Below, piece by piece: positions 4,502 through 62,259 of a stretch of 64,000 bases of DNA. Location: NCBI GenBank assembly GCA_022729705.1, contig DZAX01000012.1, forward strand, positions 1 to 64,000, read 5' to 3'. The notes under the pieces were generated by a model that was given only the letters and a program-made list of their open reading frames with translations, was not told the DNA's origin and did no database searches. A program made the position numbers and the translations under genes. The stretch is from Helicobacter cetorum (GTDB lineage: Bacteria; Campylobacterota; Campylobacteria; Campylobacterales; UBA6016). Each line of letters opens with the position of its first letter. Within the stretch, counting starts at the first letter, position 1.

Positions 4502-7469
<2,968 letters not shown>

Positions 7470-8585: not shown

Positions 8586-8779
8586 GCGAAAAAGTAAGCT
8601 TTGAAAATGAGATAGAATCGGCAAAAGAGTTGCTAAAAGAGTTAAATAACCCTGAAATTACGCTTGCCAAAAGTGTAGAGGTTTATAGAGAGGGCATAAA
8701 AAAGCTTAAAAATGCAACTAAAATGTTAGATGAGGCAAAATTGCAAATTGAAGAGTTTTCTACCGATGGTACGCGTTAA
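8582..8779 (+). CDS. xseB: Exodeoxyribonuclease VII small subunit
   Basis: This 65-aa helical protein matches XseB, which binds in several copies to XseA to form a processive single-strand exonuclease. The recognisable core is the SVEVYREGIKKLKNAT segment followed by a helix ending EEFS. The chosen start is GTG 8582, which overlaps the metX TGA (GTGA); the frame is open further upstream but only inside metX. The xseA gene is not in the window. Confidence 0.9.
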   Translation: MSEKVSFENEIESAKELLKELNNPEITLAKSVEVYREGIKKLKNATKMLDEAKLQIEEFSTDGTR

Positions 8780-8865
8780 TACAGGCAAAGCCCGTATTAA
8801 CGGCAAGGACATAAATGTCCCTGCACCCCCTAAAGTTCCCGCTTGCGCGGGGGAGTGAAGTTTAT
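8769..8865. repeat. Family B hairpin repeat, copy 3
   Basis: Same orientation and layout as copy 1: GTTAATACAGGC/GCCCGTATTAAC, GGACAT/ATGTCC, then CCCCCTAAAG and a CCCGC/GCGGG hairpin. The first stem changes on both sides relative to copy 1 (CCAATACG to TTAATACA) while pairing is largely kept. Its left end overlaps the last codons of xseB. Confidence 0.8.
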
Positions 8866-11125: not shown

Positions 11126-11866
11126 ATGTTTAGTTCTGCCGCAGCCGCTATTAACATTCTTGGAGGTGCTTTTGAATTATTAAAAAATATTGGAAATAAT
11201 TCGGAATCAAAAGAAGTATATGAATCAATAGAAAAAAGAATCGAGACCGCATTGGCGCAAGCCAAAGAATCGTTAGATAAAGATTCTGTTCAGCCAAATT
11301 TAGCACAACTGCACAAGGACTATATTACAATTCCAGGTTTGGACGATACAAACAAGATCTTTATGTAAGCAATTGAGTCAAACAAGGATGAGCAATTGAT
11401 AAAAGTTGCTAAAACGCTGCTATATTATGAGTGGATTTCTAACGCTACGCCAGGTAAGTCAAAGCAAGATATTGCATATATATCTGAAATATGGCTTTCA
11501 CATTACAAAAAGATTTTTGACGATAAAGATAAAATTTTAGAATTAGGGATAAGCTCTTTTTTGGAAGCTGAAAGTTTTAAAGAGATATTAACAATCCTAA
11601 AAAACGCTGGCGCAACTGCTGGAGTCATAGGTGTAATACTCTTGATTATACTCCCAGCAATAGGTGTTGGGGCTGGAATCATTGCTTCCATATCAATCTT
11701 TTTCTTCGGAATACCTGGTGGACAATTACTGACTGGTGCAGGACTGATAATACTTCTTGGTTTATTGTCGAGGTTTGATATAAAGGGCAAATATTTGCAA
11801 ATGATTAATGCGATAATAAAAAAGCAACTTGATCCAGACTTACATTATATTAGCCTACTCAAGTAA
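11126..11866 (+). pseudogene. Unrecognised membrane protein gene with one in-frame stop
   Basis: Two open stretches in the same frame (11126-11365 and 11369-11866) are separated only by a TAA at 11366-11368; reading through gives about 246 aa. An RBS-like AAGGA precedes ATG 11126. The N-terminal half is helical and charged; the C-terminal half has two long glycine-rich hydrophobic segments (around AGVIGVILLIILPAIGVGAG and GIPGGQLLTGAGLIILLGLL) and then a soluble tail. I do not recognise the family. The second part could restart at TTG 11396. The gene is AT-richer than its neighbours and is bracketed by two inverted MITE copies, which points to acquired DNA. Confidence 0.7.
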
Positions 11867-18440: not shown

Positions 18441-20912
18441 TTGGCGACACAAGATACACAAAATGAAAATACTCATACAGGAGACGCCGAGAGGTTGCTT
18501 GCGGATATACGCAAGCATATCGTGTGCACACTAGGAAACGACTTTTTGCCGCCTAGAAAAGACACTTATTATAATGGGCTGGCTTATAGCGTCAAAGAGA
18601 GACTCTCTGAGAGATGGCTTAAAACGCAAAGAGAGTATTACAGCAAAGAGGCGAAAAGGGTTTATTATCTTTCCATGGAGTTTTTGCCAGGTCGTTTTTT
18701 GATGAACTACGTCACAAATATGCAACTTGGCGAGCAGGTAAAAGAGGCTATCAAAGAGACAAATTTTACATTGGAGCAGATAGAGAGCGAAGAGTGGGAC
18801 GCGGGGCTTGGCAACGGCGGACTTGGGCGGCTCGCCTCTTGTTTTATGGATTCGATGGCAACTCTCAAAATTCCGGGGTACGGATACGGTCTTCGTTACG
18901 ACTACGGTATTTTTTATCAAACAATAGAAAACGGCTATCAGGTGGAGCACTGTGACAACTGGATTAGACAGGGCAATCCGTGGGAGTTTGCGAGACGCGG
19001 CTTTTTGTATGATGTAAACTTCTATGGCAGGAGCGAAGCGTACACCGATGAGAGCGGACGCTTAAGGCATCGCTGGAAGGATGCTGAAAAGATAAAGGCT
19101 ATGGCGTGCGATATTTTGATTCCGGGATACGGAAGCGACAATGTAAACAATATGCGTCTCTGGTCGGCGGTCTCTAGTGAAGATTTTAACTTAGGACACT
19201 TCAATAACGGCGATTACACGGGTGCTATGGAAGCGAAAGTGCTTTCTGAAAACATCTCAAAAGTTCTTTATCCAAGCGACGAAAAAGAAGAGGGCAAAGA
19301 GCTCAGGCTAAAACAGCAATACTTTCTTGTAGCCGCAACATTTCAGGATATTATGAGAAGGTTCAAAAGACACAATAGCAACGACTTTAGCCTATTTCCA
19401 AAACAGATAGCCGTACAGCTAAACGATACGCACCCGACAATCGCTATTCCGGAATTTATGAGGCTCCTTATCGACGAAGAGGGGCTTTTGTTTGAGGATG
19501 CGTGGAAGATTTGCGTAGATACTTTTGCTTACACCAATCACACCGTATTGCCGGAGGCTCTTGAGACTTGGTCGGTTGACCTTTTGGGCAGGATTTTGCC
19601 GCGACATATGCAGCTTATCTATGAAATCAACGATAGATTTATGAAAGATGTAGCAAAACGATTTCCGGGTAGGTTTGATTTGATGTCAAAACTATCTTTG
19701 ATAGACGAGACATACCCAAAAAGAGTTCGTATGGCGCATCTAGCGATAGTCGGCTCTCACGCAGTAAACGGCGTTGCGATGCTTCACTCAAATATCCTAA
19801 AAGAGCGGCTTTTTAAAGAGTTTGACGTATGTTTTCCGGGTAGGCTAACAAATGTGACAAATGGGGTAACACCACGAAGATGGATACTTCAGGCAAATCC
19901 AAAACTCTCGGCACTGATAACATCTCGTATAGGAGACGGCTGGATTACAAATCTTGACGAGCTAAAAAAACTTATACCGCTAGCGGAGGATAAAGATTTT
20001 AGGGCAGAGTGGAGAGAGGTCAAAAAAGCCAACAAAGAGCGACTAAAAGGGTATATTAAAAACAAAGTACGCGTCGAGATAGATACGGACTCTATTTTGG
20101 ATGTGCACGTCAAACGAATTCACGAATACAAAAGGCAACTGCTAAACGTACTCCATGCCGTAACGCTTTATAATAGACTAAAAGACAACCCAGAGCTTGA
20201 TATGGCGCCTAGAACCATCGTCTTTGCCGGCAAAGCGGCTCCCGCTTACCACTTGGCAAAGCTCATCATCAAGCTGATAAATTCAGTGGCGCAAGTCGTA
20301 AATAACGACGAGAGCATAAACAAAAAGCTAAAAGTAATTTTCCTGCCAAACTACTGTATCTCGCAAGCCGAGACGGTTATTCCGGCGACAGACCTCTCAG
20401 AGCAGATTTCTACGGCGGGGCTTGAAGCATCCGGTACCGGAAATATGAAGTTTGCGATGAACGGCGCGCTTACGATAGGCACTCTGGATGGCGCAAATGT
20501 GGAGATAATGGAAGAGGTCGGAGAGGAGAATATCTTTATTTTCGGTCTAAAAGCAAACGAAGTGGTAGAGCTTCGAGATAGAGGCTACAATCCATACGAG
20601 TATATGAGAAGAGACGAGGAGTTAAGACGAGCGCTTGAGCTAATCGGCTCAAACCATTTTTGTCCAAACGAACCGAGATTGTTTGGTGCGATACTTCACA
20701 CCCTGCTTGAGAGCGGAGATAAGTATATGGTACTCGCCGACTATAGAAGCTATGTGGATGCGCAAGGCGAAGTGGACAAGCTATATAGAGATAAGGAGGA
20801 GTGGACAAAAAAATCTATTCTCAACGCCGCAAACATGGGCAAATTCTCCTCTGACCGCTCTATTTTGGAGTATGCGGAGAGAATTTGGGGTATTAAGCCG
20901 CTTGATAGTTGA
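18441..20912 (+). CDS. glgP: Glycogen/alpha-glucan phosphorylase
   Basis: GlgP releases glucose-1-phosphate from alpha-1,4-glucan ends. The 823-aa protein has the family features in order: the MEFLPGRFL and GNGGLGRLA motifs, the NDTHP segment, and the PLP-binding EASGTGNMKFAMNGALT motif with Lys670. It starts at TTG 18441. No glycogen synthase or branching enzyme lies nearby, so it may act on maltodextrins or on glycogen made elsewhere in the genome. Its stop codon is followed immediately by a family A repeat. Confidence 0.96.
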   Translation: MATQDTQNENTHTGDAERLLADIRKHIVCTLGNDFLPPRKDTYYNGLAYSVKERLSERWLKTQREYYSKEAKRVYYLSMEFLPGRFLMNYVTNMQLGEQVKEAIKETNFTLEQIESEEWDAGLGNGGLGRLASCFMDSMATLKIPGYGYGLRYDYGIFYQTIENGYQVEHCDNWIRQGNPWEFARRGFLYDVNFYGRSEAYTDESGRLRHRWKDAEKIKAMACDILIPGYGSDNVNNMRLWSAVSSEDFNLGHFNNGDYTGAMEAKVLSENISKVLYPSDEKEEGKELRLKQQYFLVAATFQDIMRRFKRHNSNDFSLFPKQIAVQLNDTHPTIAIPEFMRLLIDEEGLLFEDAWKICVDTFAYTNHTVLPEALETWSVDLLGRILPRHMQLIYEINDRFMKDVAKRFPGRFDLMSKLSLIDETYPKRVRMAHLAIVGSHAVNGVAMLHSNILKERLFKEFDVCFPGRLTNVTNGVTPRRWILQANPKLSALITSRIGDGWITNLDELKKLIPLAEDKDFRAEWREVKKANKERLKGYIKNKVRVEIDTDSILDVHVKRIHEYKRQLLNVLHAVTLYNRLKDNPELDMAPRTIVFAGKAAPAYHLAKLIIKLINSVAQVVNNDESINKKLKVIFLPNYCISQAETVIPATDLSEQISTAGLEASGTGNMKFAMNGALTIGTLDGANVEIMEEVGEENIFIFGLKANEVVELRDRGYNPYEYMRRDEELRRALELIGSNHFCPNEPRLFGAILHTLLESGDKYMVLADYRSYVDAQGEVDKLYRDKEEWTKKSILNAANMGKFSSDRSILEYAERIWGIKPLDS

Positions 20913-21025
20913 TTGAATCCTCTGATTAAATATGAAATTTTTAGAGCGACTAGTCGTGAGAGCCGTCTGCTGAAGACCTCATTTTGGGCTTTGCCCAAAA
21001 TGTGAGAATTAATTAGAGGGTTCAA
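20913..21025 (+). repeat. Family A structured repeat, copy 1 (most complete)
   Basis: The element begins TTGAATCCTCTGATTAA and ends TTAATTAGAGGGTTCAA, a 17-bp terminal inverted repeat with two mismatches. Inside are three hairpins: GCGAC/GTCGT, GTCT/AGAC and ATTTTGGGC/GCCCAAAAT. It starts at the base after the glgP stop and lies upstream of thyX. Other copies are at 28.5, 53.5, 58.4 and 61.4 kb. It is either a MITE-like or a REP-like element. Confidence 0.85.
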
Positions 21026-28502: not shown

Positions 28503-28508
28503 TTTGTA

Positions 28509-28620
28509 TTGAGCTCTCTGATTAAATATGAATTTTCAAGAGCGGCAAGCCGCGAGAGCCGTCTGCTGAAGACCTCATTTTGGGCTTTGCCTAAAATGTG
28601 AGAATTAATCAGACGGCTCA
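28509..28620 (+). repeat. Family A structured repeat, copy 2
   Basis: Ends TTGAGCTCTCTGATTAA and TTAATCAGACGGCTCA form a terminal inverted repeat. The first internal stem is GCGGC-AA-GCCGC, the last ATTTTGGGC/GCCTAAAAT with one G-U pair. It fills the whole gap between lptG and pth, and its right end supplies the pth stop codon. Relative to the minus-strand genes it is in the reverse orientation. Confidence 0.85.
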
Positions 28621-29169
28621 TTTTGGATTTTTTGTAAATTTACTAGACACGTTCGCCAAATCGCTCTTTGTAAGCTCCAAAACCGCCTCCGCCGCCGTAT
28701 TCAGTATCTCTTCCACACTATCCCTCTCCATCTTACCAAAGTCGCTAAGACAATAATCGGCAACTTGCTCTTTGCGTTCTGGTTTGCCTATGCCGATTCT
28801 CGCTCTATAATAATCGGCTCCGATGTGCGCGTCAATTGAGCGCAAACCGTTGTGTCCCGCGTGTCCACCGCCTTTTTTGAAACGCAAAGCTCCTATTGGC
28901 AACTCTATTTCATCATGCAACACTATGACATTTTCTATTTTAAAGTAGTTTTTGACCGCAATTACGCTTTCTCCCGAGAGATTCATAAAAGTGGTTGGTT
29001 TTAGTAGGTAGATTTGTCCGGCGCGCCAAAGCTCGCCCTTAAACTCTTTTTTTGAGATATTGACGGTTTGAAGTTTTGATATTGGTTTGTCAACCGCCAT
29101 AAAGCCGGCGTTATGGCGGTTGTGAAGATATTTATTCCCGGGGTTGCCGAGTCCGACTATTAGCCACAA
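28618..29169 (-). CDS. pth: Peptidyl-tRNA hydrolase
   Basis: Pth rescues tRNAs by cleaving peptidyl-tRNA released from stalled ribosomes. The 183-aa protein has the family opening IVGLGNPG with Asn10, catalytic His19 in NRHNAGF, the LKPTTFMNLSG segment, LHDEIELP with the catalytic aspartate, and GGGHAGHNGLRSI. It lies 6 bp after rplY. The stop codon falls inside a family A repeat, but the length is normal, so the insertion cost little if anything. Confidence 0.97.
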   Translation of the reverse strand: MWLIVGLGNPGNKYLHNRHNAGFMAVDKPISKLQTVNISKKEFKGELWRAGQIYLLKPTTFMNLSGESVIAVKNYFKIENVIVLHDEIELPIGALRFKKGGGHAGHNGLRSIDAHIGADYYRARIGIGKPERKEQVADYCLSDFGKMERDSVEEILNTAAEAVLELTKSDLANVSSKFTKNPK

Positions 29170-32148: not shown

Positions 32149-32243
32149 TGATAACGCCAATGCGGGTAAAGCCCGTATTGGCGGCAAAGGACATAAATGT
32201 CCCTCGCGACCCCCTAAAGCTACCCGTATAAATGCGGGAGAGT
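32149..32243. repeat. Family B hairpin repeat, copy 6
   Basis: Orientation as copy 1: GCCAATGCGGGT/GCCCGTATTGGC, GGACAT/ATGTCC, the CCCCCTAAAGCTACCCG block, and CCCG/CGGG at the end. It starts just after the esterase stop and precedes the ppnP promoter. Confidence 0.8.
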
Positions 32244-47855: not shown

Positions 47856-48050
47856 GCTCCTTGCGGCGTAGCCGTTCGTCGCTTGTTGTTGGGCTTTTAG
47901 CCCAAACCCCTAAAGCTACGCCTGGCGGCGAGAGTTTTTTCATTTTGTGCGCTCCTTGCGGCGTAGCCGTTCGTCGCTTGTTGTTGGGCTTTTAGCCCAA
48001 ACCCCTAAAGCTACGCCTGGCGGCGAGAGTTTTTTCATTTTGTGTGCTCC
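47856..48050. repeat. Two tandem 95-bp repeat units (family B related) carrying micro-ORFs
   Basis: Units 47856-47950 and 47951-48045 differ at one base; a third copy begins GCTCC at 48046. Each holds GGGCT/AGCCC and GGCGTAGC/GCTACGCC inverted repeats and the CCCCTAAAGCTACGCC block of family B. On the minus strand each unit also carries AAGGAG or GGAG, ATG and a 32-33 codon frame starting MKKLSPPGVALGVWAKSP. The frames (48038-47940 and 47943-47842) overlap by ATGA, and the second overlaps the pgpA start. Confidence 0.9.
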
Positions 48051-53297: not shown

Positions 53298-53466
53298 ATA
53301 TCTTTTCCTTTGCTAGTTTGTACTTATTTTTGAGAGTTTACATCAATCAAGCTTATAATACTCCAAGAAAACTATACAGCTTTTTCTAAATCTTTATGAT
53401 TGTAGATTTTAGCTAAATTGTGGTTTTGGATTGGTTAAGTGGTGGGGTTTTTCAGAGGTGTCCATA

Positions 53467-53545
53467 ATTTATTCTCATATTTTGGGCAAAGCCCAAAATG
53501 AGGTCTTCAGCGTAAGGACTCACGCAACTGTCGCTTTTTCAAAAT
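53467..53545 (-). repeat. Family A structured repeat, copy 3 (diverged)
   Basis: On the minus strand this has GCGAC-A-GTTGC, GCTGAAGACCTC and ATTTTGGGC/GCCCAAAAT followed by ATGAGAAT. The first stem is altered on its right side with G-U pairing kept; the GTCT/AGAC hairpin is lost and the termini are gone. It and the next repeat take up most of the 338-bp gap between the lipoprotein and rluB; the rest holds a TATAAT-like sequence at 53354 and nothing else I can identify. Confidence 0.75.
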
Positions 53546-58350: not shown

Positions 58351-58450
58351 CAATCAGAATATGAAATTCTAAGAGCGGCTAGCCGCGAGAGCCGTCTGCT
58401 GAAGACCTCGTTTTGGGCTTTGCCCGAAACGTGAGAATTAATTAATTAAT
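58351..58450 (+). repeat. Family A structured repeat, copy 4
   Basis: GCGGC-TA-GCCGC, GTCT/AGAC, and a last stem GTTTTGGGC/GCCCGAAAC: compared with copy 1, its A-T pair has become G-C on both sides and one further pair G-U. The termini have diverged (CCAATCAGAATATG at the left). It lies between the divergent rsmA and hisF genes. Confidence 0.85.
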
Positions 58451-58462
58451 AAAAGGTAGAAA

Positions 58463-60820: not shown

Positions 60821-61436
60821 GCTTTTAGGGGGTGTTTTAAGATTTAGAAACGAAGAATTTTTGGAGCATCAAAATCTCTTTTCGACGCTTGGAAACAATC
60901 AAGACCCACATACGCTGTTTATTGGGTGCGCAGACTCTAGAGTTGTTCCAAATCTTATTACAAACACGCTTCCGGGAGAGCTTTTTGTAGTGCGAAACAT
61001 CGCAAATCTAGTGCCGCACTATAGAATCTCCTCGGAGTTTGCCGCGACAACGGCGGCCATAGAATACGCCGTAGTTGTGCTAGAGGTGGAAAATATAGTA
61101 GTTTGCGGACACTCAAACTGTGGCGGTTGCTCCGCTTTGTACCTACCCGAGGAGAAGCTAAACAAAATCCCAAACGTCAAAAAATGGCTAGAACTGGCCG
61201 CTCCAATCAAAAAGCAGGTGTTAGAAGAGGGCAAATATGAAGACGAAAAGAGACGAAATCTGCATACAGAGCTTTTAAACGTAGTAGAGCAACTAAAACA
61301 TCTACTTAGCTACCCTTTTATCAAAGAGAGATTTGAAAAAGGGCAAATAAAACTTTACGGTTGGTATTATGTGATAGAGACCGGCGATGTGTATGATTAT
61401 AACTTTGACTCCAAAGAGTTTAGGTTGATAAAATGA
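60810..61436 (+). CDS. Beta-class carbonic anhydrase
   Basis: The enzyme interconverts CO2 and bicarbonate. Zinc ligands Cys40, His101 and Cys104 and the Asp42-Arg44 dyad (CADSR) are all present in this 208-aa protein. Sequence around GHSNCGGC fits plant-type/beta carbonic anhydrases common in capnophilic Campylobacterota. It ends a four-gene overlapping operon, and its TGA is followed directly by a family A repeat. Confidence 0.94.
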   Translation: MEDKLLGGVLRFRNEEFLEHQNLFSTLGNNQDPHTLFIGCADSRVVPNLITNTLPGELFVVRNIANLVPHYRISSEFAATTAAIEYAVVVLEVENIVVCGHSNCGGCSALYLPEEKLNKIPNVKKWLELAAPIKKQVLEEGKYEDEKRRNLHTELLNVVEQLKHLLSYPFIKERFEKGQIKLYGWYYVIETGDVYDYNFDSKEFRLIK

Positions 61437-61536
61437 TTAATGCTCACATTTTGGGCAAAGCCCAAAATGAGGTCTTCAGCAGACGGCTCTCGCGGCTAGC
61501 CGCTCTTAGAATTTCATATTTAATTAGAGGGTTCTA
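61437..61536 (-). repeat. Family A structured repeat, copy 5 (reverse)
   Basis: The minus strand reads the family in full: CCCTCTAATTAAATATGAAA, GCGGC-TA-GCCGC, GTCT/AGAC, ATTTTGGGC/GCCCAAAAT. It exactly fills the gap between the carbonic anhydrase stop and the queE TTG. The outer end on the queE side contains AGAGGG, which is the only ribosome-binding site available to queE. Confidence 0.85.
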
Positions 61537-62259
61537 TTGCTAAGTATCTCAGAAATTTTCTATTCACTCCAAGGGGAGGGCAGGTATGCGGGGCGTCCTA
61601 GCGTATTTGTGCGCTTTGGCGGGTGCAACCTTCGATGTGAGGGGTTTGGCGGCGGATGTGATAGCCATTATGCTGTTTATCCGCTCTTTAGCAACTCTTG
61701 GGCTAAGTATGACGCAAAAAGCTTGATAGCGGAGTATGAAAAGGCAAAGGTTCACAGCCACACCGATACAGTCTTAACAGGTGGAGAGCCTACGCTTTAT
61801 TTCAAAGACGCTGATTTTATGGCGTTTGCCGAGTATATCGCCTCCTCTGGTTCGCTTACCACCGTGGAGACCAACGGCACAAAAGAGATAGATTTTGAGT
61901 TTGCGCCGTTTTGCTCTTTTGTATACTCTCTATCGGTAAAGCTTTCAAATAGCGGCGAGGGCGTAGAGGATAGAATAAACCCCGCCGCATTGGACTCTTT
62001 TGTGAAAAACTCAAATCACTTTTTTAAGTTTGTATTGGACGCAAAGCTTATAGCCTCCGGCAAAGCAAAAGAGGAGATAGGCGAGCTAAAAGTGCGGTTT
62101 GACATATCGCCCCAAAACATCTACTGTATGCCGCTTGGAGTCTCAAAAGAGGAGATTGGCGAAAACGCAAAAGCTGTATTTGAGTTTTGCGCCGCCGAGG
62201 GGTACTCCTACTCCGATAGACTTCACATCAGGGTGTATGACAAAAAACGGGGCGTTTAG
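61537..62259 (+). CDS. queE: 7-carboxy-7-deazaguanine synthase
   Basis: QueE is a radical SAM enzyme making 7-carboxy-7-deazaguanine for queuosine. The 240-aa protein opens ISEIFYSLQGEGRYAG and has cysteines 30, 34 and 41 (spacing CX3CX6C rather than CX3CX2C), then LTGGEPTLY and VETNGT. The longer gap resembles the modified loops seen in other QueE clades. The start is TTG 61537 with AGAGGG seven bases before it. No other que genes are in the window. Confidence 0.92.
   Translation: MLSISEIFYSLQGEGRYAGRPSVFVRFGGCNLRCEGFGGGCDSHYAVYPLFSNSWAKYDAKSLIAEYEKAKVHSHTDTVLTGGEPTLYFKDADFMAFAEYIASSGSLTTVETNGTKEIDFEFAPFCSFVYSLSVKLSNSGEGVEDRINPAALDSFVKNSNHFFKFVLDAKLIASGKAKEEIGELKVRFDISPQNIYCMPLGVSKEEIGENAKAVFEFCAAEGYSYSDRLHIRVYDKKRGV

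Follow-up and report, generated by a model that had tools for sequence, protein, structure and literature searches.

Within the 64,000-nucleotide stretch of Helicobacter cetorum DNA analyzed here (the window), a complete copy of an interspersed repeat, family A copy 1 (20913-21025, plus strand), lies between a glycogen phosphorylase gene (18441-20912) and a ThyX-family gene (Thy1, from 21070). As the first-pass annotation had stated, this copy is bounded by 17-bp terminal inverted repeats. The left arm, TTGAATCCTCTGATTAA, occupies 20913-20929 on the plus strand and the right arm 21009-21025 on the minus strand; they form 15 Watson-Crick and 2 G-T pairs, and the arm pair is unique at that spacing within the 64 kb. 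Between the arms, a 5-bp hairpin designated H1 (20946-20957, plus strand; GCGAC-TA-GTCGT, arms 20946-20950 and 20953-20957) is followed by an H-type pseudoknot (20961-20977, plus strand), in which stem 1, AGC/GCT, joins 20961-20963 to 20969-20971 and stem 2, GTCT/AGAC, joins 20965-20968 to 20974-20977, with GA as the linker. Two-sided changes are found in 5/5 pairs of H1 and in 7/7 pairs of the pseudoknot. A long hairpin, CATTTTGGGC/GCCCAAAATG (20980-21002, plus strand), completes the 3′ part. The earlier description of three shared hairpins was thus incomplete, the middle one being the pseudoknot.

All five copies reported at 20.9, 28.5, 53.5, 58.4 and 61.4 kb were located. Copy 2 (28508-28623, plus strand) is antisense to both of the genes between which it lies, an lptF/G-like gene and a peptidyl-tRNA hydrolase gene. 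Copy 3 (53465-53537, minus strand) has a degenerate 5′ half, copy 4 (about 58358-58456, plus strand) is in the 5′ region of a hisF-like gene, and copy 5 (61434-61537, minus strand) lies downstream of a carbonic-anhydrase gene in antisense orientation. The paired change first noticed in H1, from GCGGC/GCCGC to GCGAC/GTCGT, is real, and genome-wide 25 copies have A-U and 20 have G-C at the column pair 8/13. For the last stem of copy 4, where paired changes had also been claimed, the outer A-T to G-C change is two-sided, but the inner change from U-A to U-G affects one side only.

Other repeats occur in the same window. A second interspersed family (1437-1512, 5948-6007, 8765-8840 and 32149-32236) has hairpins GGGACATAAATGTCCC and CAATACGRGCAAAGCCCGTATTG, plus CCCCCTAAAGCTACCCGC, and it directly adjoins family A copies at loci L035, L037 and L014. 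A tandem pair of 95-nt units, 99% identical and with hairpins containing TTGGGCTTTTAGCCCAA, is present at 47856-48045. Between 10917 and 12045, inverted repeats of about 117-130 nt (81-88% complementary) surround about 840 bp, possibly a mobile unit; the ORF inside (11396-11866) has no Pfam match.

Copy 1 has about 50 matches in the window's own genome (G000; 2.19 Mb in 75 contigs). Many reach 85-94% identity, and some are arranged in tandem, with 75-nt units on contigs C49 and C6 and 96-nt units on C35. The C49 arrays fall within a putative ffh-rpsP-KH-rimM-trmD-rplS operon, its genes being named from sequence reading. Overall, the repeat is about 75-115 bases long. In an alignment of 48 own-genome copies (A2), 95% of cells pair in a structure made up of H1, RGC-GCY and the long hairpin; two-sided changes affect 9/18 pairs, and 38 cells are changed on both sides, compared with 11.5 after shuffling. 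Arrays were also seen elsewhere: four 90-nt tandem core copies separate nusG from rplK in genome G238 (L187, 1501-1856), and genome G149 has 92-nt arrays of 3-4 units (L225, L226). At L039 and L043, long but spurious ORFs made of SHILSKAQNEVFSRRLSRL repeats run along the opposite strand of tandem arrays and are likely to give rise to erroneous protein annotations. In both G000 and the congeneric genome G002, a further hairpin of about 44 nt interrupts the family A 3′ hairpin, each time at one and the same position (L025 near 1590, L057 near 1550); it represents either a nested insertion or a common old copy.

The first-pass annotation had proposed scanning the genome and its relatives with a covariance model of the repeat copies, and such a scan reveals an order-wide element. 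Model R1, built from the A2 alignment, found it in 49/299 genomes of the order and 21/81 genera, and an exact-pattern scan gave named matches in Sulfuricurvum, Sulfurovum, Sulfurovaceae and a 'Helicobacteraceae' MAG. With a core model, R2, 81/397 high-quality genomes of a phylum sample matched, all from the same order (Campylobacterales), with up to at least 16 matches per genome. When searched with the covariance models of 4227 Rfam families, the element matched no family at the gathering threshold or at E = 1. Viral contigs, phages and plasmids yielded no match to it, and a phage or plasmid origin was rejected on that basis; a literature search of partial coverage found no description of it.

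What is constant across lineages is a core with the sequence AGAGCGACnAGTCGC-GAG-RGC-n-YTCT-GCY-GA-AGAR: the 5-bp hairpin H1, then two interleaved stems that make up a minimal H-type pseudoknot (3 bp + 4 bp, linker GA). A long hairpin follows on the 3′ side and is lineage-specific. It takes the form TTTTGGGC/GCCCAAAA, or related forms, in the window's family; several other lineages have AACYYAGYGTTARCGTAG and a hairpin closed by RCGT, and in families f15 and f2 the 3′ domain is a hairpin that contains a Shine-Dalgarno sequence. No U run follows the 3′ hairpin, as an intrinsic terminator would have; GTGAGAATTAATCA comes next.

Covariation in the core was measured in a sequence-only alignment, A4, of 133 copies (131 distinct rows). 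Three low-scoring loci that are probably false or truncated matches (L180, L189, L173) were left out, as were a duplicate (L143) and a copy masked with N (L158). Two-sided changes were found in 12/12 core pairs, including the four of pseudoknot stem 2, although R1, the model with which the copies were found, lacks that stem. The outer pair of stem 2, 28/41, is G-C in 58 copies, C-G in 52 and U-A in 7. Across the alignment, 95.7% of cells are paired, against 83.1% in shuffled alignments, and 209 are changed on both sides, against 59; 0/500 shuffles reached any of five measures. Shuffling ignores shared ancestry. Controls in which the structure was slid along the alignment, which allow for it, gave 26-52% paired. 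Conservation is 92-97% at the unpaired G that precedes stem 1 and in the GA linker.

Selection on the folded form, as first suggested from the five window copies, is strongly supported by these alignments, and it extends to a pseudoknot that the earlier reading had missed. Neither the lack of covariation nor the single recent expansion with random mutations that the first-pass annotation had set against its own proposal was found. Some copies are shortened or mutated, copy 3 among them, as they would be if the similarity were due to chance or to the decay of a single expansion free of structural selection. That account is contradicted by covariation far above shuffles and slid controls in 133 copies, and by a core that stays constant despite lineage-specific 3′ domains, and we give it a negligible probability.

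Whether the selected molecule is RNA or single-stranded DNA is a separate matter. Wobble asymmetry was considered as a strand test and rejected: the core has 38 G-T and 41 A-C mismatches and hence no asymmetry, so sequence in the window's own genome does not settle the choice. The 3′ hairpin in that genome has 32 G-T or T-G mismatches and 8 A-C or C-A, a difference that may reflect shared descent. Sense-only copies that abut start codons in other families, described below, favor RNA.

The element is mobile, as seen from its presence or absence at orthologous sites between congeners. At the 58.4-kb hisF-like site, congeners G001 and G002 carry a short intergenic stretch with no element, and the 28.5-kb copy is missing from the orthologous site in both. 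Conversely, G002 has a copy one gene beyond the 28.5-kb site, at a junction that is short and free of the element in G000 and G001 alike. This reciprocal pattern shows that the element is gained or lost whole within the genus. The sites of the thyX and 61.4-kb copies, compared in the same way, have been hit by rearrangement or contig ends. Copies in G000 bear TTGAACCCTCTGATTAA as inverted arms (67 arm matches at ≤3 mismatches versus 5 for a reversed control), and internal-deletion derivatives in this genome keep the same ends. The 17-bp terminal inverted repeats are confined largely to the window's genus and its relatives, most other lineages having no such ends. Element ends run into AT-rich flanks, and a target-site duplication is seen at most as a possible 8-bp TCATTTTG at 28.5 kb.

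The enzyme responsible for movement was sought in two ways. For a parent transposon with the same ends, the search started from all 67 end-like matches in the 75-contig assembly. Of those left unexplained, the 13 strongest were read, and none of these flanks a transposase. This candidate was rejected, the matches read being shortened family A copies or lying beside genes with no transposase between paired ends. A RAYT-like transposase encoded with the same ends, a partner raised in the first-pass annotation, did not emerge either: the three Y1 loci in G000 have no family A copy at their ends, and a Y1 gene went unmatched in 16/49 element-bearing genomes, complete ones included. Among those lacking Y1 are G001, G002, G067, G184 and G238, the last with 15 element copies at 100% completeness. 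By hand count, Y1 is commoner in genomes with the element (33/49) than in those without it (104/250). Since element-bearing genomes can lack Y1, a Y1 (RAYT-type) transposase is not required, and we rejected it as the parent. One Y1/RAYT-like gene (L046, 1381-2103, minus strand) holds several REP-like palindromes of the GGGGCTAAAGCCCC-ACTTCC type in its coding sequence.

These properties could be those of a purely DNA-level mobile element, MITE- or REP-like, whose fold serves as a single-stranded transposase substrate and whose start-codon positions are tolerated landings. The terminal inverted repeats, presence and absence at orthologous sites, deletion derivatives with common ends and a core with no G-T excess all fit such an element, as does the use of both orientations in the own genome, where copies with a called downstream neighbor are sense in 16 cases and antisense in 19. 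In other families, neutral landings would not produce what is seen. All 40 scored copies of families f15, f10, f2 and f3 are sense to the downstream gene (Fisher p ~1e-8 versus the own genome, in a tally labelled by hand in which related copies are not fully independent). In f15 and f2 combined, the element ends ≤4 nt from the start codon in 23/24 copies, and in 20/24 of these element-bearing leaders most of the Shine-Dalgarno sequence is predicted to pair within the 3′ hairpin. Neither that precision nor the 40/40 sense orientation is expected of landings that are merely tolerated, no transposase is flanked by element ends among the matches read, and the five genomes named above lack Y1. Taken together, we regard a DNA-only element as unlikely.

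The f15 and f2 copies suggest a comparison with translational riboswitches that sequester the Shine-Dalgarno sequence, in that a structured 5′ domain precedes a hairpin predicted to hide it. In these two families, the element would work like such a leader and is a putative regulator. Family f3 differs in that the hairpin lies just upstream and leaves the Shine-Dalgarno sequence mostly free. At L099 (1487-1501) and L175 (1487-1500), a mini-ORF, ATG AAA GGA GGA/T TAA ATG, is found between the element and infA and overlaps the infA start. Genes led by the element, as identified by sequence reading, include metK, argH, argC, uvrA, metG, pyrF, der, truA, infA and others; rplK and trmD were also read as element-bearing, and no common theme connects them. 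The lack of functional relationship argues against a single metabolite-sensing regulon, and when examined as a riboswitch regulon the targets proved to be unrelated housekeeping genes. A classical metabolite riboswitch or a ribosomal-protein autoregulatory leader would account for the compact pseudoknot, the predicted Shine-Dalgarno sequestration, the tandem units and the copies in ribosomal or translation operons (rplK, rpsP, infA). It is nonetheless very improbable given a mobile element with tens of copies per genome, targets with no common function, antisense and 3′-end copies, and no match to an Rfam riboswitch even at E = 1.

Sense copies between co-directional genes and beside tRNAs, along with operon-internal tandem arrays (ffh-array-rpsP, nusG-array-rplK), point in another direction, toward an intercistronic mRNA-processing or stability element that is cut or bound by an RNase, or is self-cleaving, and separates operon messages. 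Many copies in the own genome and in families f6 and f20 are antisense or lie between convergent genes, which speaks against such a role, and no known ribozyme family matches. We find this explanation unlikely.

Comparison with known systems helps to place the element. Like MITEs, it is short (about 115 bp), non-coding and present in high copy number, with terminal inverted repeats, presence/absence differences at orthologous sites and internal-deletion derivatives; unlike them, it has no cognate transposase among our findings, and its body is an RNA-like fold with a pseudoknot that covaries across an order. With terminal inverted repeats and insertion differences in the window's genus, but no ends shared with an autonomous transposon among the matches read and at most a possible target-site duplication, 'MITE-like' is the best name. 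REP/REPIN sequences and their RAYT (Y1) partners are also short, structured, intergenic repeats in single or tandem arrangement, but the element has a pseudoknot core, flanks no RAYT gene in G000 and is present in Y1-less genomes. It belongs to no REP/RAYT system or known Rfam family, nor is it an intrinsic terminator. The bcr elements of Bacillus cereus are likewise scattered repeats with a proposed RNA fold; they differ in belonging to an unrelated host phylum. Type III toxin-antitoxin RNAs (ToxI) are likewise tandem repeats of small RNA pseudoknots, with a repeat unit of 36 nt, whereas units of the element are 73-96 nt and mostly occur as single dispersed copies. A ToxN-family (PF13958) search matched 0/17 element-bearing genomes, and no control genome matched either.

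The reading we prefer, to which we assign a probability of roughly 60% on the basis of these sequence comparisons, is that of a MITE-like element whose core is under selection as RNA and which serves some lineages as a portable mRNA leader. It would be a mobile repeat, small and non-autonomous, with a structured RNA module encoded in its body, in the order H1, compact H-type pseudoknot and long lineage-specific hairpin, all enclosed by 17-bp inverted repeats in the window's genus. Each lineage carries an amplified version and tandem arrays of its own. An enzyme supplied in trans may move the DNA copies by way of their ends, while the fold may work as RNA in mRNA leaders and spacers, a use that would keep it preserved. 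There, the pseudoknot may bind a conserved partner and tune initiation or mRNA processing, and in f15 and f2 the element may control access to the Shine-Dalgarno sequence. Copies in G000 are probably for the most part near-neutral intergenic insertions. More tentatively, we raise the possibility that the cargo of the mobile element is itself a regulatory RNA. A leader made of pseudoknot and hairpin would then insert between genes and, in entire bacterial families, would have come to stand upstream of many unrelated genes, one fold controlling their translation or message processing.

Our covariation model represents a missing Rfam family and offers a concrete target for searches for the binding partner and the mobilizing enzyme. 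Small dispersed repeats are common in bacteria, and to our knowledge few have been shown to keep a tertiary-capable RNA fold across an order while still moving. Should leader copies prove to control the genes they precede, the element would provide a route by which a selfish repeat could rewire how dozens of housekeeping genes are translated, all at the same time.
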